This document shows positions 7,891 through 24,599 of a DNA stretch of 35,160 bases, one piece after another (positions within the stretch are counted from its first letter, which is position 1; each line of letters starts with the position of its first letter). This stretch comes from a virus, in IMG/VR virus record IMGVR_UViG_3300005577_000063, positions 1 to 35,160 of that record, one strand, 5' to 3'. The notes beneath the pieces were generated by a model, which ran no database searches, was not told where the DNA came from, and worked only from the letters and a program-made list of their open reading frames with translations. A program made the position numbers and the translations under genes.

Positions 7891-8245
7891 GTCTAACTCT
7901 GTTGCGTCCACCCTTGGCGATGTTGTGTCTCTCACAGAGGACTTGTGCGTTCTCATCTGTTGCTCGACCACCTAGTGAGAGTGGGTGTATGTAGTCCACC
8001 TGTAGTGGGCCATGGCACCCACCCATGTGGGCATAGACGCACCTCGAGGTGGGAGTGACCATGCGGTGCCTCCTCTGCTGGTGTGCATAACCATGCTGAT
8101 CCTTGTAGTGGGCACGGGCAGGGGTAGTGGGGTGCCTACCCCTAGGGCAGTGAGGGGCATGAGGCATGGTGGGTATGGGCCTACCGCATGTGATGCATGC
8201 CCTGGGCATGAGGGTGGGGGCATAGGGGCTACGCTGCGATGTCAT
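7883..8245 (-). CDS. HNH endonuclease-like protein beside terminase
   Basis: A 120-residue protein with a CITCGRPI zinc knuckle near residue 18 and an HNH block, VDYIHPLSLGG...NAQVLCERHN. HNH proteins immediately upstream of terminase are known in HK97-like phages, where they stimulate terminase cleavage. The position usually held by the first catalytic His (DH) is Tyr here, with a His two residues on, so nuclease activity is uncertain. The ATG at 8245 has GGTAAGGGTGAAGG upstream and overlaps the preceding gene by 17 bases. The middle section is His/Arg/Pro-rich and of low complexity. Confidence 0.8.
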   Translation of the reverse strand: MTSQRSPYAPTLMPRACITCGRPIPTMPHAPHCPRGRHPTTPARAHYKDQHGYAHQQRRHRMVTPTSRCVYAHMGGCHGPLQVDYIHPLSLGGRATDENAQVLCERHNIAKGGRNRVRRG

Positions 8246-8585
8246 CCTTCACCCTTACCTTCTGCCAGTCTGAGTTAGGGAATGTTTCTATTGCCCCACC
8301 ACCGAAGGTGACCTGCCACTCCACTAGGTAATCCCCTGGTGTATCGGTATGGGTACTGGTGGGGGTGAACGAGACCTTCCCAGTAGGGGCATCGGTGATC
8401 GTGGCAGCAGCGTTCACCTTGACCGCTGCGTCTCCTGGTCCCCACATCATGAACTTGACTGAGGCACCAGCAAGGTTGACCGCTGCACCTAGGCCATCGA
8501 AGAGCTGCTCTGCGATGGCAGGGGCTGTGTCACCTTGTTTCCAGTAGAAGTCTGGGCTCTTACGCTGCCAGCGGGTACGGCTCAC
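8229..8585 (-). CDS. BppU-like N-terminal domain virion protein
   Basis: A 118-residue protein with the beta-sandwich pattern of the baseplate upper protein N-terminal domain: QGDTAPAIAEQLFDGLG, VNLAGASVKFMMW, DAPTGKVSFTPT, TDTPGDYLVEWQVTF and a final TFPNSDWQKVRVKD. Such domains sit in tail-tip or fibre adaptor proteins. It ends next to the packaging HNH gene and overlaps the upstream repeat-protein gene by 4 bases. A virion role is inferred from domain type and from the neighbouring fibre-like genes. Confidence 0.7.
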   Translation of the reverse strand: MSRTRWQRKSPDFYWKQGDTAPAIAEQLFDGLGAAVNLAGASVKFMMWGPGDAAVKVNAAATITDAPTGKVSFTPTSTHTDTPGDYLVEWQVTFGGGAIETFPNSDWQKVRVKDDIAA

Positions 8586-9475
8586 ACTTCCTCCATGCTG
8601 TTATTCCCTGCTCCGATAGGTACTGCTTGAGGTGCGCCGGCTAGTTCTTCGCTATCCGATCCTGAGCCCACTAGGCTGGGCACACGGGTTGGGCCTGCCA
8701 GTTCGGACGATGTGACCCCTACCCCGACCAATGACCTCTTGTGGGTTGGGCCTCTTACTGGGGTGGCCTGTCCACCGATGAGCGCGGTTATGGTTTGGCC
8801 AGACCAGGTGATTTGCCCTTGGGTGGTTACGGAAACGACAACACCGCTTGAGATGGTTACGGTGATGTTCGTTGCCCCAGCCCAAGTGATTTGCCCTTGG
8901 GTGGGGGTAATCTTGGTGGCGATTGGGGCAGATTGCCCAGCCCATGTGACTGCACCTGCGGTAGTACCTATCGTGAACTTGAGCGGAAGGCTTTGTCCTG
9001 CCCAGGTGATTGCCCCTGCTGTAACGGGGAACCCGAACTGAACCGCGATGCTCGAGCCAGTCCAGGTGATCTGCCCTTGGGTGGTGACGCTGAATACCAC
9101 CGGCAGGCTGACAGGGAGGTCTTGACCTTGCCATGTGATCGCCCCAGCTGTTGGGGTGATCGTGTATTTCAGTACGAGGGCAGAGCCGGTCCAAGTGATG
9201 GCACCGGCCGTTGGGATGATGTTTGTAGCTATGGTGACCGCTGAGCCAGTCCACGTTATGGCCCCAGCGGTAGGGACGATCTTTGTAGCGACTGGTTCGT
9301 CTTGCCCGGTCCATGTAACGGCACCCGCAATAATCGGGATACCGAACGCTACAACTACACTTGAGCCCGTCCAGGTGATCTGCCCTGGCGTACTGACGGT
9401 GATAACAACATTGCCGCCAGTCGGTTCCTGAAAGGCGTCTTGTTGGAAGGCGTCTTGTTGGAAGGCGTTTGCCAT
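8582..9475 (-). CDS. Tandem-repeat fibre-like virion protein
   Basis: A 297-residue protein built of repeats. The N-terminus has three AFQ(Q/E) units (AFQQDAFQQDAFQEP), a type of start seen in phage structural proteins. It is followed by about ten units of 19-22 residues carrying Gly-(Ala/Gln)-(Ile/Val)-Thr-Trp-x-Gly, then three 19-residue units of the form GPTxxxSLVGxGxxSxELA. The hydrophobic alternation suggests repeated beta strands, as in a fibre or beta-solenoid. DNA repeats accompany the protein repeats, so copy number could vary. It lies in a run of virion-like genes; no enzymatic motif is visible. Confidence 0.8.
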   Translation of the reverse strand: MANAFQQDAFQQDAFQEPTGGNVVITVSTPGQITWTGSSVVVAFGIPIIAGAVTWTGQDEPVATKIVPTAGAITWTGSAVTIATNIIPTAGAITWTGSALVLKYTITPTAGAITWQGQDLPVSLPVVFSVTTQGQITWTGSSIAVQFGFPVTAGAITWAGQSLPLKFTIGTTAGAVTWAGQSAPIATKITPTQGQITWAGATNITVTISSGVVVSVTTQGQITWSGQTITALIGGQATPVRGPTHKRSLVGVGVTSSELAGPTRVPSLVGSGSDSEELAGAPQAVPIGAGNNSMEEV

Positions 9476-9490
9476 TCCGCCTCCCAGCTA

Positions 9491-9964
9491 TTAGGTAACG
9501 GTGCCGGTAAACAACCCCGATGCGCCAGTGGTGATGGTAAGCGTGTTCCCAGCGGTGACGGTCGTATTGCCTGCCCCCGTGCAGTCGATGTACCCGATAA
9601 GCGGCGAGGTGGAGGCCGTGCCAGTGTCTTTCCTCAGCACGGCATAGCGGAACGTGATCCCGGCACCCGATGCCGTCCAGATGACCGTGGTGTCGTCCAT
9701 ATCGAAGGTGTTGATATTGCCGCCAGCCGTATAGACCACCGTTTTACCGGCAATGGTGATACCGCCGGCCGTGTAGCCGTTGGCCGTGGTGAGCTCGTTA
9801 GTCGCGTCATCGAAGAAGTCGTGCACGTCGATGTCGGGCACATAGGTCGTGTTATGCAGAGAGAACTTGATCGTGTCCGTCAAGTAGTCGATCGGTGTAC
9901 CGCCGCCGGCTGTACCACCCGCGATGTTCGCCCCAAAGAGGCCGTATAGCTGAAGTGTGGACAT
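9491..9964 (-). CDS. Putative virion appendage protein
   Basis: A 157-residue, Gly/Thr-rich, beta-predicted protein (MSTLQLYGLFGANIAGG...). It has the composition of a phage tail or fibre protein, with FSLHNTTYVPDIDVHDFFDDATNEL followed by AGGITIAGKTVVYTAG. Repeated TAGG/TTG turns suggest a beta-sandwich. No catalytic motif or signal peptide. It sits between two other appendage candidates in the same operon. Related proteins seem widespread in environmental phages, but the exact role is unknown. Confidence 0.7.
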   Translation of the reverse strand: MSTLQLYGLFGANIAGGTAGGGTPIDYLTDTIKFSLHNTTYVPDIDVHDFFDDATNELTTANGYTAGGITIAGKTVVYTAGGNINTFDMDDTTVIWTASGAGITFRYAVLRKDTGTASTSPLIGYIDCTGAGNTTVTAGNTLTITTGASGLFTGTVT

Positions 9965-9972
9965 CTAGCCTC

Positions 9973-10581
9973 CTAAGCCTGTAGCCAGGATGTTACATAG
10001 TCGATTGTGTAGGACGCTGAGGTACCACCGTTCAGCGAGAGGCTCACATATTGGCCGGCTACCGCTGTGTTGTCCCATGTTGCCGAGACGATGCGATCAC
10101 CGTCACCCATCTGAGTGCCGGTGAAGCCCATCGCACCGATGAGCACACCTGAGGCCGAGACGGTACGGACCATCGCCCGGACGAACAGGATATTGGCCGA
10201 GGCAGTCGCGGCCTGGGCCACGGTCTGCGCCAACGCACACCGGGAGGCATCAGCCGTGGTACGGGCTGAACCGACGCGAACCGTAGCGGCGAACAAGGCC
10301 GTACCGGCGGCGGTCTTCTCAATACCGACTTCCCAACAGTAGACCTGTCCGGCCTTCATCCCGTAGGAGGGGATGATGATATCGGAACTCGTAAGCCATG
10401 TGTCGGCAGCAAAGCCGGTTTGCTGCACCACCGAGGAGTTGCTGGAGATGGCACCACCTCTGGGCGTACCACCGTCATCGATGACTGCCAACCTCTTGGC
10501 GGTGGAGTCAACGAACAGCACGGATTTGCCCGCCGCTGGTGTAGTAGGCCCAGCTTGGTTATCAATCAGGATATCTGCCAT
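9973..10581 (-). CDS. Putative tail-fibre/appendage protein
   Basis: A 202-residue protein. The N-terminus MADILIDNQAGPTTPAAGKSV...AVIDDGG resembles the attachment segment of many phage fibre proteins. The C-terminal two thirds alternates hydrophobic and polar residues (beta-sandwich), ending SASYTIDYVTSWLQA. The ATG overlaps the stop of the upstream gene by one base. It is likely a virion-exposed protein by context; a receptor or glycan ligand cannot be predicted. Confidence 0.7.
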   Translation of the reverse strand: MADILIDNQAGPTTPAAGKSVLFVDSTAKRLAVIDDGGTPRGGAISSNSSVVQQTGFAADTWLTSSDIIIPSYGMKAGQVYCWEVGIEKTAAGTALFAATVRVGSARTTADASRCALAQTVAQAATASANILFVRAMVRTVSASGVLIGAMGFTGTQMGDGDRIVSATWDNTAVAGQYVSLSLNGGTSASYTIDYVTSWLQA

Positions 10582-11000
10582 CAGCCTCTCCCTGTAAGGA
10601 CTATTCGAGAGCCCACGAAATCGTCGCGGATCATCAGTCGTGCAGACTGTTCCAAGATTCCCCGGCCCTGAGCCTCGAGGGTCAGGCGGTCTAGAACGTT
10701 AAAGAAGAACCCCGCAGGCATACGGAACGGCGTGGTGAATGAGAATGGATGGCCGACGATGTTTGGAACCCGCGTATCAGTCCAGCCGAAGACGTACATC
10801 CGGGCTGTGCCGGCCAGGGTGAGTCGATCTGTACCGTCGAGTGGTACGCGAACAAGGTTGATCCACTCAGCATCGGTGACAACGACTGTCCCTGTGGGAT
10901 ATGCGATGGCGTGCTGGTCGTTCCAGGCCGAGGGTCTTACGAGGGTGGCGTCCCCACCATCAGCTATCCCAGATACGAACTTGTGGGTTACGACACCCAT
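10581..11000 (-). CDS. Putative tail-fibre N-terminal-type protein
   Basis: A 139-residue protein beginning MGVVTHKFVSGIADGGDATL and then VRPSAWNDQHAI, a start pattern common in phage fibre or appendage proteins. The remainder contains a strand-rich jelly-roll-like segment (FSFTTPFRMPAGFFFNVLDRLTLEAQGRG). It directly follows the secreted-protein genes of the export module, and nothing separates it from them except the start codon, so module and fibres can be co-transcribed. Confidence 0.7.
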   Translation of the reverse strand: MGVVTHKFVSGIADGGDATLVRPSAWNDQHAIAYPTGTVVVTDAEWINLVRVPLDGTDRLTLAGTARMYVFGWTDTRVPNIVGHPFSFTTPFRMPAGFFFNVLDRLTLEAQGRGILEQSARLMIRDDFVGSRIVLTGRG

Positions 11001-11360
11001 CTAGGGGGCCTGGAAGAAGCCGGTGTCATCTAACACAATCTCCCCCGGTGTGCTCTCGTCCCTGAAGATCAAGAAGGCGCGGCATGTACCTTCGGCCACG
11101 GTGCCAAACCACAGCACCCATACCGTGTCGTCCATGACATAGAAGCCGTTGCGCTCGATCTCCTCGCCGTAGTACGTCGGGTTGCCTTGTGCATCCCAAC
11201 ACCGTGTGGAGACCCAGACATGATCCCGTCTACCGATGTGGCTTGTTGTGGCTGTGAAGGTGACTGGGGTGGTGCTTGTCAGCGTCAGGTCGCCCTGTGG
11301 CTGGGGAGCGGCTGCGAGGAGCAACGGGACGATCAGCAAGAGAGCCAGGGACCGCCGCAT
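11001..11360 (-). CDS. Secreted protein with Sec-type signal peptide
   Basis: A 119-residue protein. MRRSLALLLIVPLLLAAAPQ is a clear signal peptide: two Arg, a 14-residue Leu/Ala core, and an AAA-type cleavage site near residue 18. The mature part (about 100 residues) is beta-rich with two Cys (STRCWDAQG and EGTCRAF) that could form a disulfide outside the cytoplasm. The ATG at 11360 overlaps the upstream stop as TGATG; longer in-frame extension upstream is shadow of the neighbouring gene. Third cargo-like gene of the tatA operon. Function unknown; host-envelope modification or superinfection exclusion are conceivable. Confidence 0.8.
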   Translation of the reverse strand: MRRSLALLLIVPLLLAAAPQPQGDLTLTSTTPVTFTATTSHIGRRDHVWVSTRCWDAQGNPTYYGEEIERNGFYVMDDTVWVLWFGTVAEGTCRAFLIFRDESTPGEIVLDDTGFFQAP

Positions 11361-11791
11361 CACTCGCCAACCACGCCTTGGCATTTCGCGTTGCCGGTTC
11401 CGATGTCCGGTTTGTAGACCTGGACCGTGAATGAGCCCGGGGTGGCGACATAGCCGCTGATCGGGTCGAACGGATCCCAGAACTCGTAGTAGCCGGGGAG
11501 CATTCCATCCGATGCCCACCAGCGCGGCAGCGTTGTGACCCCATGACCAGTCGCGTCTAGTGGGCCAATCCCAGCATTCGGGTGAGCCCCATTCGACGGG
11601 TCTCCAACCCAGTTGACCTTCACCCAGTATGTTGCGCCCGGAACGCCGTTGAACACCTCGAAACTCCACGTCCCACCCGCATTCAACGCGGCAGCAGAGA
11701 TAGGCTGATTGACCTGGCAAGAAGTATTGGCGGCATGCGCCGAGGGCATTAGGGACAGGGCAAACAGAAATGCGGCGATTGCTGATTTCAG
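11360..11791 (-). CDS. Secreted protein, probable CTG start
   Basis: From CTG at 11791 the protein has 143 residues and a good signal peptide: Lys-Ser, then a hydrophobic AIAAFLFALSLMP core, and SAHA before the mature AANTSC. The first ATG (11749) falls inside that signal peptide and has no ribosome site, whereas the CTG has AAGGAG six bases upstream. The mature domain (about 123 residues) is beta-rich with a Trp-rich centre and two Cys near its ends, suggesting a disulfide-closed Ig-like fold. It overlaps the next secreted-protein gene by one base. Confidence 0.78.
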   Translation of the reverse strand: MKSAIAAFLFALSLMPSAHAANTSCQVNQPISAAALNAGGTWSFEVFNGVPGATYWVKVNWVGDPSNGAHPNAGIGPLDATGHGVTTLPRWWASDGMLPGYYEFWDPFDPISGYVATPGSFTVQVYKPDIGTGNAKCQGVVGE

Positions 11792-11801
11792 ACCGATCTC
11801 C

Positions 11802-12011
11802 TTAGAACAGCAGCAGGAGCCGCCTTGTGGCTGGGCTCTCAGTGGGCGGGGGTGGTGTCGGTGTGGGTGTAGGCGTAGGGCTAGGGCACCAGTTGGGATT
11901 GTTCGGGTTGAGCTCCCAACAGGGCTTAGGGGCGGCAGCCAGGAGTGGCAAGGATGCTGCTATGGCCCCGATACCGAAGAACTGGCGGCGGGTGTATCTA
12001 CTCGCTGTCAT
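11802..12011 (-). CDS. Small protein with twin-arginine (Tat) signal peptide
   Basis: A 69-residue protein beginning MTASRYTRRQFFGIGAIAAS. TRRQFFG matches the twin-arginine consensus (S/T-R-R-x-F), followed by a hydrophobic core and an AAA site near residue 27. The mature part is only about 42 residues: a Cys-x10-Cys segment (CWELNPNNPNWC), a Pro/Thr repeat tail, and a C-terminal RRLLLLF. Its ATG lies 14 bases inside the tatA gene, so it is translationally coupled to TatA. This pairing makes it the obvious intended cargo. Such a small Tat substrate is unusual; function unknown. Confidence 0.78.
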   Translation of the reverse strand: MTASRYTRRQFFGIGAIAASLPLLAAAPKPCWELNPNNPNWCPSPTPTPTPTPPPPTESPATRRLLLLF

Positions 12012-12135
12012 CCTCGAGACCGCGCTTAAACTCAGCCCTTGAACGGCCTACCCCACGGGCTAGTTCTGGGAGCTTCTTAGCCCCGAAGACCAGGACTAGA
12101 AACGCGATGATGCCGACGATGATCCACTCGTTCAT
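11998..12135 (-). CDS. tatA: TatA-family protein, twin-arginine translocase subunit homologue
   Basis: A 45-residue protein with the complete TatA signature: short periplasmic N-terminus (MNEW), one membrane helix (IIVGIIAFLVLVFG), the conserved Phe-Gly hinge at residues 17-18, then the amphipathic helix GAKKLPELARGVGRSRAEF and a charged tail. TatA oligomers form the translocation element of the Tat system with TatBC, which must come from the host because neither is encoded here. The ATG at 12135 has GGAG eight bases upstream; a longer upstream extension lacks sense. It is shorter than bacterial TatA (usually 60-90). A host-derived, pared-down copy is the likely origin (inference). Confidence 0.9.
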   Translation of the reverse strand: MNEWIIVGIIAFLVLVFGAKKLPELARGVGRSRAEFKRGLEDDSE

Positions 12136-12181
12136 GGGGTTCACTCCGGGATTTGAGACAAAGCGGCTACCCGCCGGGGCC

Positions 12182-12210
12182 ATCGTACATACGTTCGAGT
12201 AACCTGTCAA
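12182..12210 (-). promoter_or_regulatory. Near-consensus promoter of the tatA operon
   Basis: On the minus strand, TTGACA (12210-12205, six of six consensus bases), a 17-base spacer and TACGAT (12187-12182, fits TANNNT). The -35 overlaps the TGA of the upstream gene. Expected start of transcription is near 12175, giving a roughly 40-base leader before the tatA ribosome site. No other minus-strand gap in the genome shows a perfect -35, so this module is probably expressed independently of the rest of the operon. Confidence 0.75.
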
Positions 12211-12404
12211 GCCCCTGCGGGGGTGTCCCCCTTGGCCTCGGCGAGGGTGGCGCGGGCACTCTCAACAGCCTCGTCCCAGTCATGCTCCAATGCATCCGCT
12301 ATCCGGGTAAGCACCTGCATCAGTCGTTCAAAATCGGCCTGGATATGGTCGTAGCGCACGACCACACTGAGATCCTCGTCTTGGGTGAACCACGGTTCAG
12401 CCAT
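12207..12404 (-). CDS. Hypothetical acidic protein, 65 aa
   Basis: MAEPWFTQDEDLSVVVRYDH begins an acidic, helical 65-residue protein with no Cys, signal peptide or known motif. It overlaps the upstream gene by 8 bases, and its stop coincides with the -35 of the tatA promoter. Not recognised; a small adaptor or regulatory protein is possible. Confidence 0.7.
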   Translation of the reverse strand: MAEPWFTQDEDLSVVVRYDHIQADFERLMQVLTRIADALEHDWDEAVESARATLAEAKGDTPAGA

Positions 12405-12822
12405 GTGCCTCCCCCAACTCAGTCTGGCCCGCTATCTCTTTCTCTAGCTGCCTCAGCCGGCGTAGCTTCTCTTGGAATTCCGGATCTTGTTCTGCCCAGG
12501 CTTCTACGATGATGTCACTGGCTTGTTCGAGAGGAGGGCCTACTCTTCGAAGAGAACGGGCGGCGAGTCGAAGCCGCCAGCGCATCCGTTTGTGCATACC
12601 TGACGTAGCCACATCACCAGTGGGGTCTCCGAGGGGTGCTCCGGGTCGATTGATACCCAGGCCGTCACCCCCGGATGTCTTACGAAAAGCGGCATCGTAT
12701 AGGTCGGCATAGGCATCTCCTACATGTTGGGCTAGATCAGCTAGTTCATTGGCGGTCCTTACGATCCTGGTCATCTCAGCTGCTATGGCCTCAGGAACGG
12801 GCATTGCGGGCCTACGGGTCAT
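12397..12822 (-). CDS. Hypothetical protein, 141 aa
   Basis: The start is taken at ATG 12822, which overlaps the upstream stop as TGATG; a longer extension lacks support. The protein has a helical N-terminal part (IAAEMTRIVRTANELADLAQHVGDAYADLYDAA), a Gly/Pro-rich loop, a very basic patch (MHKRMRWRLRLAARSLRRVG) and a helical C-terminus (EFQEKLRRLRQLEKEIAG). The basic patch could bind nucleic acid. No family recognised. Confidence 0.7.
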   Translation of the reverse strand: MTRRPAMPVPEAIAAEMTRIVRTANELADLAQHVGDAYADLYDAAFRKTSGGDGLGINRPGAPLGDPTGDVATSGMHKRMRWRLRLAARSLRRVGPPLEQASDIIVEAWAEQDPEFQEKLRRLRQLEKEIAGQTELGEAHG

Positions 12823-13142
12823 CAGAGGTCTTCTCCCTGGGCACGCTCCCACATATCGAGCTTGGCCTCACGGGCTTCAACCTCGGACGCAGGCATCCCG
12901 GCGTACATTTCCAACTGCGCCCGCAGCCGCTCGACCTCTGCCTGCAACTCACTGCTAACTGCTTCCTCGGCGCGTAATGCACCGACGAGCCAATCAGACT
13001 TCTTCTTGAGTCTCTTAGCCTCATTCTTAGCGGCGTTCCAGTCGGCCCAGCACTCGTCATACCTGTCCCGCAGCCGCTCGACCTCGGCTACCAGCGCATC
13101 AAACTCTGGTTTCGGTACCACGACGGTCTCAACTCGCGCCAC
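12822..13142 (-). CDS. Hypothetical coiled-coil protein
   Basis: 106 residues from GTG 13142, chosen because GAGGG lies 7 bases upstream; an ATG at 13160 has no ribosome site and overlaps the HNH gene more. Most of the protein is heptad-like (LVAEVERLRDRYDECWADWNAAKNEAKRLKKK, ELQAEVERLRAQLEMYA), predicting a long coiled coil. No enzymatic motif. It is probably an oligomerising accessory protein; function unknown. Confidence 0.7.
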   Translation of the reverse strand: MARVETVVVPKPEFDALVAEVERLRDRYDECWADWNAAKNEAKRLKKKSDWLVGALRAEEAVSSELQAEVERLRAQLEMYAGMPASEVEAREAKLDMWERAQGEDL

Positions 13143-13446
13143 TGCGATCCCTCTTTTCATGAGCCCGGGCTGCTAGGGCATCGAACCTCTCGTCACCGAT
13201 CTCCGACCGCCAGAAGGCCTCTTTCTCCCAAGGATGGGAGTCTAGGAATTGGTGGCAGCCATAACATAGGGCTAGGGCGTTGTCAGGATCGAATCTCGTT
13301 GCCCCGGTGCGTCTGGTGAAGTGATGAGCGGAGTGGAGCCCCCCGGGCTTGGGTTCGGAATGACACCGCTTGCATCTGTAACCGTCGCGCTTCCTAATCT
13401 GGTCTGAGAATCGAGCATCGGCGGCGGTGCGCTTGATGCCACTCAT
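13129..13446 (-). CDS. HNH-type zinc nuclease-like protein
   Basis: A 105-residue protein with CKRCHSEP (zinc), then LHSAHHFTRRTG, FDPDNALALCYGCHQFLDSHP: the His-His, Asn and Cys-x2-Cys-His layout of beta-beta-alpha metal nucleases used in phage recombination and DNA processing (NinG-like or free-standing HNH). ATG at 13446 overlaps the stop of the cytosine methyltransferase by 4 bases, so the two are coupled. Homing, recombination or junction processing are all possible. Confidence 0.78.
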   Translation of the reverse strand: MSGIKRTAADARFSDQIRKRDGYRCKRCHSEPKPGGLHSAHHFTRRTGATRFDPDNALALCYGCHQFLDSHPWEKEAFWRSEIGDERFDALAARAHEKRDRSGAS

Positions 13447-14081
13447 GCCACCCTCGCTAGGTGTTCTAGCAACTGCTCTCCGACAAACTGGCTATAGGCG
13501 GGGGGAATCGCTTCGGCGATCTCATCGCCCGTCATCCAGTCGATGCCCATGGCTGCTTTCCACCTTGGATCTGTCATCCCGGTAATCCCATCGCGCCGCT
13601 TGCTCTTAGTGTTGTATGGATTCAGCGGATGGGGCACCAGATCGTGGCGGCAGGGCGGGGACATGATCAGGGGCACGGTCTCGAAATAGCGGTGCCGCCA
13701 TATCGGCAGACCGAATGAGGAACCACACAGCATCCCCCCCGTGAGGGGGGCGCCCTTCACGTTCTCGATCACATAGGGCAGGCCCGTTGCCTTGAGCAGG
13801 GCGCGAATCGGTTCTATCAACCTGTCCGATGGGCGAGCTCGATGCCTGAGATGTGGGCTGTACGCCTGGCACGGCGGTGAGGCGTGGATGGCGTCGTATC
13901 GACCATCCCTCCAACGCAACCTCATCAACTCCAGCGCATCTGCCATCACGAACTCGAATGGGTAGTGAGGCTGCGGCTTGATATCCACGCCGACCACATC
14001 GAACCCTGCTCGGTGATAGCCCATAGCTGCACCGCCGGCACCGCAGAACAGATCAAGCAGGAGCGGCCTAACGGCCGTCAT
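13443..14081 (-). CDS. DNA (cytosine-5) methyltransferase
   Basis: 212 residues from ATG 14081, which overlaps the preceding microprotein stop as ATGA and has GGAAGG upstream. Motif I is DLFCGAGGAAMGYHRAGF, the catalytic motif IV is SPPCQAYS, motif VI is ENVKGAP, and a late IPPAYSQFVGEQL resembles motif X. It transfers methyl from SAM to C5 of cytosine. It is small, with little target-recognition domain, as common in phage enzymes. No partner restriction enzyme is seen, so protection against host restriction or epigenetic control is likelier than a restriction system. Confidence 0.9.
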   Translation of the reverse strand: MTAVRPLLLDLFCGAGGAAMGYHRAGFDVVGVDIKPQPHYPFEFVMADALELMRLRWRDGRYDAIHASPPCQAYSPHLRHRARPSDRLIEPIRALLKATGLPYVIENVKGAPLTGGMLCGSSFGLPIWRHRYFETVPLIMSPPCRHDLVPHPLNPYNTKSKRRDGITGMTDPRWKAAMGIDWMTGDEIAEAIPPAYSQFVGEQLLEHLARVA

Positions 14082-14170: not shown

Positions 14171-14478
14171 CTTACGTCCACCGGGGTAGGCACTACAGCC
14201 TCGAGCTTCTGATATCTATTCTCGAACTCACGGCCACGTAGCTGGGTGCTCTTGAGATTGATATCAAGTGGGTCATCACGCACGATCTCCAACCATCGTT
14301 CGACCCGGGCTCGTTCCCATTCGATGGGGTGATTGTGTTTGAGCTTGCCCGTGATGCTCCCCCCTCGTTCTTCAGCCATTCGGGCGCATGCCCTGCACCA
14401 TCCGTTGTTGGGTACGCGGCCTACCTCTTCGGTGTCGTGGCCTCGCTTGCAGATGCGTTCCCTTGGGCGTCCAGTCAT
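14167..14478 (-). CDS. Hypothetical zinc-knuckle protein
   Basis: 103 residues from ATG 14478 (4-base overlap with the upstream stop). The N-terminus has RICKRGHDTEE...WCRACARM, the C-x2-GH...C-x2-C knuckle often found at the start of phage HNH proteins, but no HNH block follows; instead there is a basic/helical stretch (KLKHNHPIEWERARVERWLEIVR). Probably nucleic-acid binding. It may be a degenerated HNH protein. Confidence 0.7.
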   Translation of the reverse strand: MTGRPRERICKRGHDTEEVGRVPNNGWCRACARMAEERGGSITGKLKHNHPIEWERARVERWLEIVRDDPLDINLKSTQLRGREFENRYQKLEAVVPTPVDVR

Positions 14479-14900
14479 GCGCAACTCCACGCCGACCAGC
14501 TGCCCGAGTAGTGAACCATCCTAGCCGTCGTCACGATTTGAGAACGACTGTTCGTCCATCTCCGCCACGGGCCTACCTTCCAGGCGTCCGGTACCTGATG
14601 TGTCACCCGTTCCGGCCAGTACATCGCCGAGTGTTGAAACAGGCCAAGGTACTGCCCGTCGTTGTCTGCGAACCGATACCAGTTGCTCTCGCACGCAGCG
14701 ACCGCAGAGAACTCCTCGATCCCACCAGGAACCGACCACTTCTGCACCACACACCTGGCAGTTCGTCGTTCTTCTCGGTCGGTCCAGACCTGATGGTCGA
14801 GGCTCTGGAATCGGCATTGGTTCTCCTGTCGTTCAGTCAGAGCTTGGGATGGTGTCGGGATTAGGGTCATACACATGGCTATGAGTAGGTACCTCAGCAT
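14475..14900 (-). CDS. Secreted lytic transglycosylase/lysozyme-like protein
   Basis: 141 residues from ATG 14900 (GTG at 14906 also possible). MLRYLLIAMCMTLIPTPSQA is a signal peptide; the mature domain has FSAVAACESNWYRFADNDGQYLGLFQHS, matching the catalytic Glu (CES) and Gly-Leu-Phe-Gln of lysozyme-like/SLT folds, which cut the glycan strand of peptidoglycan. It lies with early accessory genes, far from the holin, so a role in host wall modification during infection is as likely as lysis. Its start overlaps the upstream gene by about 68 bases, unusually long here. Confidence 0.78.
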   Translation of the reverse strand: MLRYLLIAMCMTLIPTPSQALTERQENQCRFQSLDHQVWTDREERRTARCVVQKWSVPGGIEEFSAVAACESNWYRFADNDGQYLGLFQHSAMYWPERVTHQVPDAWKVGPWRRWTNSRSQIVTTARMVHYSGSWSAWSCA

Positions 14901-15051
14901 TCCCACCTGACCTTTCTCGGACTAGAACGCGACCACACTCATGTATGAACGCACGGCCCTCTCGAGCAGCCTTCGCTGCCTCAACACCGTCAAAGGGCTT
15001 GGCGCATGTACCGCACACCGGCCTGGGTGTCGGTACTTTCTTCTTTGCCAT
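14833..15051 (-). CDS. Zinc-ribbon-like small protein
   Basis: 72 residues from ATG 15051 with GGGAGG six bases upstream (a GTG two codons earlier is less likely). MAKKKVPTPRPVCGTCAKPF carries Cys-x2-Cys, followed by FIHECGRVLV with His and Cys that could complete a zinc site. The C-terminal 25 residues are His/Pro/Asp-rich and overlap the next gene's signal peptide region. Function unknown. Confidence 0.7.
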   Translation of the reverse strand: MAKKKVPTPRPVCGTCAKPFDGVEAAKAAREGRAFIHECGRVLVRERSGGNAEVPTHSHVYDPNPDTIPSSD

Positions 15052-17148: not shown

Positions 17149-17445
17149 CTAGCACCGACTCACAAGCTCGTTGAAGGTGTCGATGGCCTGGTCATAGTCC
17201 GGATACTCAGACATGAACCCCTGAACGAAGGCATCCCGACTGGCGTCCACGCCGAGCTCGTCCACGTAGCCACAGAACTCAGCCACGGTGCCGGGGTGCA
17301 GGGCCTCGTAGGTGTCCACGAAGCTCCCTGACTCGCTGCTCCCCCCCACGTTCTCAATCGGGGTGGTGGTCGGTGCATCGGTGGAACTACCGCAGGCCGT
17401 GAGGATCACGGCGACAGCGGCTAGAGCAATCAGTGCCTTCTTCAT
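17149..17445 (-). CDS. Phage-encoded lipoprotein
   Basis: 98 residues. MKKALIALAAVAVILTACGS is a lipoprotein signal peptide with lipobox LTAC (Cys at 18), so the mature protein should be lipid-anchored outside the membrane. The mature domain starts with a Ser/Thr-rich tether, then an acidic helical domain with Cys at FCGYVDE and a C-terminal SRC, probably a disulfide. GGGAGGG upstream. Lipoproteins of several phages block superinfection by binding receptors or injection machinery; that role is an inference here. Confidence 0.85.
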   Translation of the reverse strand: MKKALIALAAVAVILTACGSSTDAPTTTPIENVGGSSESGSFVDTYEALHPGTVAEFCGYVDELGVDASRDAFVQGFMSEYPDYDQAIDTFNELVSRC

Positions 17446-23882: not shown

Positions 23883-24599
23883 TTAGAAGGGCTTCTCGGC
23901 GAACGTCCAGTTATCCCAGATGTTGAGCCGCCGGAAGCTCTCGATGGTCAGCCTGGCCGTGCCGTTCGCTAGCCATCCTGAACCCCAGGAGTTCTCGACC
24001 CGGACGAAGGGTGGAGCCCCGTTATCGGGGGCCATGTCCACGCCGGTCAGAGCGAGATCGTGGTAGCCGACGTGCTCCGAGTCCAGGTTGACCTTGATCC
24101 ACTGATTGCCATAGGCCTTAGAGAGCCGTCCATCGTTGTAGTACATCGAGCCATACCAAGGGACGGCAATCGTGACTGGGCCGTAGGTGAGGAGGCAGGT
24201 GATGATGTCATCAACCTGGAGCACCTTCCAATAGGAGTCGATCAGCCCCCACTCGAGCAGCTTGGCGCAGGCATCGCGGGGATGCATCCCTTGCTTATAG
24301 GTGGTGTCCCCTGACGCCTCGAGGTAGAGCCTACGGGCGAACTGATGGGCTCCCTCCTCGGTCTGGAACTCCGCATAGGTATCGTGTTCGCTGGCCCCGG
24401 CCAGCAGGACGTTCGTAGTCGCGTGACCGACACATGTTCCCTCGTTGCCCTGGTTGATGCGGAAGTCCGGGCCGACCATCGTGTAGAACTTCCGGTCGAT
24501 GGTGGATGCGTTTAGGGCCACCGATAGCGGTGGGGCGAATCGGTAGTCACGCGGGTCGTATCGGTCGGGCTTGGCTCCGAGTGCATAGGGTTGTGGCAT
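23883..24599 (-). CDS. Papain-like (C1) cysteine peptidase, virion-associated?
   Basis: 238 residues. INQGNEGTCVGHATTNVLL contains the Gln and catalytic Cys of the papain family; GYHDLALTGVD supplies the His and VRVENSWGSGWLANG the Asn-Ser-Trp-Gly active-site motif; together a complete C1 triad. No signal peptide. ATG 24599 follows the TAG of the fibre-like gene with GGAGG. Papain-like domains are unusual among phage tail or lysis genes; it may cut peptides in the host envelope or process a virion protein. Confidence 0.85.
   Translation of the reverse strand: MPQPYALGAKPDRYDPRDYRFAPPLSVALNASTIDRKFYTMVGPDFRINQGNEGTCVGHATTNVLLAGASEHDTYAEFQTEEGAHQFARRLYLEASGDTTYKQGMHPRDACAKLLEWGLIDSYWKVLQVDDIITCLLTYGPVTIAVPWYGSMYYNDGRLSKAYGNQWIKVNLDSEHVGYHDLALTGVDMAPDNGAPPFVRVENSWGSGWLANGTARLTIESFRRLNIWDNWTFAEKPF

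Follow-up and report, generated by a model that had tools for sequence, protein, structure and literature searches.

Phage morons, superinfection-exclusion genes and lysogenic-conversion genes are accessory, envelope-altering, variable between relatives and served by a private promoter, and the locus described here resembles them in these respects, its effect on the envelope being a predicted one. Unlike them, it combines a translocase component with a matched Tat cargo, has a promoter but no terminator of its own and runs on into virion genes, and exchanges its mature domains while the signal peptides in front of them are conserved. Its first gene encodes a protein that, like the TatA of bacterial two-component TatAC-type systems (PF02416), has an acidic residue ahead of a short N-terminal membrane helix, an F-G hinge, an amphipathic helix and an acidic end, and is 64-67% identical to actinobacterial TatA; unlike bacterial TatA, it comes from a phage lacking tatC and its sequence stops at 45 aa, whereas the host proteins with their tail reach ~70-90 aa. 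With the BhlA/TpeE holins (PMC9527704) it shares its size and the order of its parts, with an amphipathic helix after a short membrane helix, but it has no sequence relation to them and carries the TatA positions instead of their TQG motif. Like phage-encoded auxiliary genes it appears to be a host gene acquired by a phage and kept under constraint, though the cassette would act on protein export and not on metabolism. No earlier report of a phage with a general translocase component and matched cargo was found in the phage collection and open-access literature searched.

The locus lies in a virus record of 35,160 bases, analysed over its whole length (the window), which its gene set, including portal, maturation protease, major head protein, large terminase and tape measure genes, identifies as a tailed phage, an uncultured one of soil type. 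No tyrosine or serine integrase was detected within the window, and one tyrosine integrase was found in the record of its relative L002; all records compared are linear contigs. The four genes listed in the preliminary description, for TatA, a Tat-signal protein and two Sec-type proteins, were found where it had placed them, at 12135-11001 on the minus strand (Table 1). Its statement that all four overlap holds for tatA and the Tat gene (14 nt) and for Sec1 and Sec2 (one shared base, TGATG), but not for the Tat gene and Sec1, which lie 10 nt apart with the ribosome site TAAGGAG spanning the Tat gene stop. The Sec2 stop (11001) touches the ATG (11000) of the next virion-region gene, so there is no terminator between cassette and fibre genes, and the described position upstream of fibre genes is supported. 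A signal-peptide heuristic applied to both strands of the window returned four ORFs in total and none on the plus strand. We read the four genes, with somewhat better than even confidence, as a phage export cassette that would use host TatC and Sec to deliver surface or secreted cargo that can be exchanged; support for the export architecture is good, and the function of the cargo we infer.

Table 1. Features of the cassette and its surroundings in the window, and Tat-signal ORFs of two other phage contigs
Feature	Position	Strand	Description
Marker gene	12397..12852	-	151 aa, no assigned function; conserved upstream boundary of the slot
Promoter	12182..12210	-	TTGACA-N17-TACGAT; single sigma-70-type match in 8000-13500
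LexA/SOS-type box	12183..12198	-	TCGAACGTATGTACGA; overlaps spacer and -10
Leader motif	12155..12167	-	GCCGCTTTGTCTC; between promoter and tatA; one exact copy in the window
tatA	11998..12135	-	45 aa, minimal TatA; Pfam PF02416 TatA_B_E
Tat-signal peptide gene	11802..12011	-	69 aa, SRYTRRQFFGIGAIAASLPLLAAA; TRRQFF, CWELNPNNPNWC loop, Pro/Thr tail
Sec1	11360..11791	-	CTG start (almost certain); Sec signal peptide AHA-A; mature 122-123 aa
Sec2	11001..11360	-	Sec signal peptide and ~100 aa mature domain
First virion-region gene downstream of Sec2	10581..11000	-	followed by virion-region gene 10581-9973
Lysozyme-like protein	14906-14475	-	signal-peptide heuristic candidate, as are Sec1 and Sec2
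Lipoprotein	17445-17149	-	signal-peptide heuristic candidate
L011 Tat-signal ORF			MNRRKFLQLAG..., 198 aa, beside tatA
L012 Tat-signal ORF			MNRRHFLQ..., 127 aa, beside tatA
L012 Tat-signal ORF			MNRRRFLHLL..., 60 aa, beside tatA

The identity of the first gene is supported by a PF02416 score of 48.4 bits (5e-13; cut-off 21) and a PDB TatA match at 5e-8. Aligned with the TatA of E. coli, B. subtilis and actinobacteria, the phage protein keeps the short transmembrane helix with a polar or acidic residue before it, the F-G hinge, the basic amphipathic helix (APH) and the acidic end, and the hinge, APH and acidic end are among the features listed as important for Tat function (PMC9527704). It is 93% identical in L010, a 36-kb relative from another sample, where dN/dS, estimated from 11 changes, is only 0.34, which counts against the export reading. 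The best matches, at the identity given above, came from 296 sampled genomes of the Streptomyces phylum, and none was obtained at E<=1e-9 from 294 genomes of the phylum of the Gemmatimonadales MAG. The closest host proteins begin with MNEWIIVGI as in the phage and have, beyond the acidic end, a tail missing from the phage protein. A small tree placed the phage pair beside these host proteins, with a support of 0.92 for the joint group that is weak given ~45 informative columns. We infer that the phage TatA is host-derived, of actinobacterial type and trimmed to its minimal region; this origin, together with the LexA-type box discussed below, points to an actinobacterial host. Matches of the large terminase in the sampled genomes were distant ones alone, in both phyla tried. 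No tatC was found in eight phage records including the window, L010, L011 and L012, so that TatA function would require the TatC of the host.

The pairing of tatA with Tat-addressed proteins extends beyond this phage group. A TatA alignment scan of viral contigs confirmed four loci, and in the unrelated phage contigs L011 (100.9 kb) and L012 (58 kb) tatA has adjacent Tat-signal ORFs; tatA thus adjoins Tat-signal genes in each phage lineage found, which makes three phage groups. A strict Tat-signal pattern, applied to both strands of 92 viral records (1.27 Mb), retrieved eight ORFs, a count that describes the pattern and is no test of it, since the filter was adjusted after the known cases had been seen. 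Five of the eight, the Tat peptide of the window among them, belong to the four records with tatA, where each is encoded on the tatA strand no more than ~1.2 kb from tatA; the other three lie elsewhere, all antisense to phage genes. Tat-signal ORFs cluster near tatA, far from what chance would give. Against Pfam TAT_signal the window Tat peptide had no match and an L012 Tat protein scored 16.7 bits (cut-off 22.7). The L012 module sits between a terminase-like gene and a terminase C-terminal/portal pair, and has the appearance of an insertion in or next to the terminase gene; at L012:2476-7528 the terminase-like N-terminal and terminase C-terminal ORFs are ~3.4 kb apart, with tatA and the two Tat-signal genes in the gap. 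A search of 50,697 records turned up no annotated phage with tatA. Matches in wastewater 'phage' records of Listeria and Staphylococcus were set aside as unannotated, unverified assembly contigs; OR849886.1 and OR848130.1 hold tatA with tatC-like sequence or a typical Bacillales tatA and are apparently host chromosome, the Staphylococcus record being taken as host DNA because tatC-like sequence adjoins its tatA.

In the Tat-signal peptide of the window, TRRQFF occupies residues 7-12 ahead of a hydrophobic stretch, a motif of the S/T-R-R-x-F-L type. The L010 version is 70% identical and keeps the RR motif, the CWELNPNNPNWC loop and the Pro/Thr tail, with a dN/dS of ~0.24. Its sole A-x-A site has Pro at +1 and the L010 version has no A-x-A site, so the peptide may be uncleaved, and may then be membrane-anchored. 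Counted at 42 residues, it would be an odd Tat cargo, which weighs against the export reading.

Sec1 and Sec2 each have an n-h-c signal peptide and a soluble mature part, the strongest hydrophobic segment being N-terminal, and by inspection the mature parts may be disulfide-type beta domains; that of Sec1 has two Cys near its ends. The Sec1 start at CTG 11791 is almost certain because TAAGGAG-N6-CTGAAATCAGCAATC is conserved in L010. Start and signal peptide of Sec1 are conserved between the two phages, while the mature domains have no BLAST similarity, and the nucleotide alignment of window and L010 breaks at the signal-peptide boundary. L002 encodes an 85% identical Sec2 at this locus; between the two phages dN/dS is ~0.07 for the mature domain and ~0.6-1, near neutral, for the signal peptide, a pattern that fits a cleaved signal in front of a selected exported domain. 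With the clean AHA-A and AYA-A cleavage sites of Sec1, this variable signal and conserved mature domain of Sec2 disfavour an alternative raised at the outset, that the two signal peptides anchor virion proteins in the membrane. PDB sequence searches with Sec1, Sec2 and DUF1996 gave nothing usable, and no Sec2-type homologue was found in genome contigs or in 296 actinobacterial genomes, the latter with a weak search model and hence of little weight. A weak candidate Sec2 relative in L003 (31%, 4e-5 among candidates only) was rejected, as it lies in what by inspection is an unrelated LamG-like ORF.

Comparison of related phages places these genes in a slot whose upstream boundary, the marker gene, is 92% identical in L010, 87% in L014 and 78% in L015, and which ends at the fibre-region genes. 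L001 is a near-identical fragment. L010 has promoter, leader, tatA, Tat peptide and two Sec signal peptides in the same order, so that a synteny search for the four genes succeeded; it keeps the CTG-started Sec1 signal peptide and an MRR-LALLL Sec2 signal peptide, and similarity ends after each, the Sec2 slot being filled by a DUF1996 domain (6e-44). In L014 the slot is occupied by DUF1996 and an M11-like metallopeptidase; L015 has a beta-helix protein there together with a small domain, and L016 has a small domain. In L002, Sec2 occurs without Tat genes, between the lysozyme-like gene and the same virion genes; a 43% homologue of the first virion-region gene follows it directly, and the upstream marker was not detected. 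In more distant relatives the genes near a homologue of the one at 9964-9491 encode a secreted alpha/beta hydrolase, an fn3/beta-helix protein and small domains. On these alignments the slot is best regarded as a hotspot for exported cargo, with the window and L010 representing the version in which tatA and the Tat peptide come first. The exact four-gene form has two independent members only (window/L001 and L010); the Sec2 homologue in L002, its dN/dS of ~0.07 and the four-gene order in L010 argue that the cassette is more than chance. The L014 metallopeptidase (L014:1930-3039) is secreted, contains HEFGHNFGLDH, matches Pfam M11 (gametolysin) and belongs to a cassette beside fibre genes, and the related phage L065 encodes a signal-peptide alpha/beta hydrolase (L065:7702-8490; BD-FAE, 9e-23) near fibre-region genes.

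The same variability could be taken to mean that the locus is an ordinary moron cluster, with unlinked accessory genes in a hypervariable slot and no functional link between tatA or the Tat peptide and the Sec proteins. Each relative's slot does hold different exported proteins, and among 50 related or neighbouring viral records tatA was present only in the two chosen for it. The presence of Sec2 without TatA in L002 also fits, indicating that the Sec cargo is independent of the Tat genes, and qualifies the expected co-occurrence of the four genes in relatives, which L010 displays at all four positions and L002 does not. We nonetheless regard an unlinked cluster as unlikely, since L010 retains the leader, both signal peptides and all four positions and has only its mature domains replaced, as would be expected of genes handled as one unit, and since tatA stands beside Tat-signal genes in all phage lineages found. 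The export operon of the preliminary description therefore survives in its four gene types and is refined: the alignments show a retained export head (promoter, leader, tatA, Tat peptide and two signal peptides) behind which exported domains are swapped between related phages.

The proposed private promoter is the sole sigma-70-type match in the 5.5 kb searched, and since ~1.8 matches are expected in shuffles this match is by itself weak proof; its conservation adds to it, with TTGACA-N17-TCTAAT in L010 and the same position and similar sequence in both L010 and L015. Promoters differ from that of the window in L014, L016 and L002. Overlapping the window promoter, TCGAACGTATGTACGA is the sole full match in the window to TCGAAC-N4-GNNCGA, the LexA consensus of Streptomyces (PMC9380542). 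At the same place L010 has TCGAACGTCTGTTCTA, with one mismatch, and L015 has TCGAACCTCTGTTCGA, a perfect TCGAAC-N4-GTTCGA, so that a LexA-type operator of actinobacterial consensus sits over the core promoter in three phages and LexA control of the cassette is a well-placed prediction. The leader motif recurs as GCCGNTTTGTCT, one copy each in L010, L014 and L015, always just upstream of the first exported gene; as a structured RNA the leader was rejected, its fold being no better than shuffles (not significant). In L014 two promoters (620-760 and 1040-1200), one ahead of a GIY-YIG gene and the other ahead of DUF1996, share a dyad-like -10 region, CGTGTCA(A/G)AGT, unlike the SOS box.

We propose that the LexA-type box would repress the operon until an SOS response, during infection or induction, after which the trimmed, host-derived TatA would insert in the host membrane, pair with host TatC and raise or redirect Tat capacity. 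The Tat peptide would either be exported or stay anchored, its CWELNPNNPNWC loop and Pro/Thr tail facing outwards, and Sec1 and Sec2 would leave via the host Sec pathway. The exported proteins might then act at the envelope or beyond it, by blocking receptors, keeping superinfecting phages off or altering the surroundings, a role suggested only by the adjacency of fibre genes and the rapid swapping of cargo.

The main rival to the export reading is that the phage TatA is a holin-like permeabiliser, which clusters and thins the membrane, perhaps triggered by the RR peptide on host TatC, and so times lysis or depolarises the cell. TatA and the small holin TpeE have been argued to be mechanically alike (PMC9527704), the paired RR peptide is tiny and maybe uncleaved, hence a trigger rather than a cargo, and a secreted lysozyme-like gene (14906-14475) lies 2.3 kb upstream. 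Against this, the hallmarks for Tat function, needless in a holin, are kept, whereas the TQG motif and aromatic transmembrane consensus that serve as BhlA/TpeE holin criteria (PMC9527704) are absent from MNEWIIVGIIAFLVLVFG by inspection; the phage also carries a distinct M15-like endolysin candidate (23824-23390), along with two further small membrane proteins in the neighbourhood. We judge a holin role improbable, slightly more so than an unlinked cluster. That the Tat peptide is an inhibitor jamming host TatC, with TatA as modulator and host Tat export blocked during infection, draws on an RR signal that is short-tailed, may be uncleaved and comes with no enzyme domain, but is very improbable given that an extra functional TatA would counteract jamming and that the L011 and L012 Tat proteins, at 60-198 aa, differ in their mature parts.

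Since unrelated phages also pair TatA with Tat-addressed proteins, the export reading suggests that certain phages bring their own means of placing proteins outside the infected cell. More tentatively, and with rather less than even confidence, we propose that a Tat-hijack module recurs in unrelated phage lineages, in which a minimal, host-derived TatA beside Tat-signal proteins would recruit host TatC as a phage-directed translocon, and that in one group resembling actinophages this module stands at the head of a cassette under SOS control, with Sec-exported surface proteins that are traded at the signal-peptide boundary beside tail fibres. If functional, such a cassette would re-equip infected cells for the export of phage-chosen proteins and give soil phages a route to envelope remodelling, superinfection exclusion and extracellular enzymes (DUF1996, metallopeptidase, esterase, beta-helix). 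The phage protein would then also represent a natural 45-residue minimal TatA.

The Sec-signal protein of the window at 14475-14906 (minus strand) has a lysozyme/transglycosylase-like look (CESNWYRFADNDGQYLGLFQHS), with homologues of 44-52% identity in L002, L010, L015 and L054 and a second copy in L015 (6250-6696). The small lipoprotein at 17149-17445 (minus strand; lipobox LTAC) is near-identical in L010 (139-438) and is probably another envelope protein of this phage group. At 23883-24599 the window encodes an unexplained papain-like C1 peptidase, 73% identical in L041, L042, L043 and L045, phage records that also carry a secreted DUF1996 protein.
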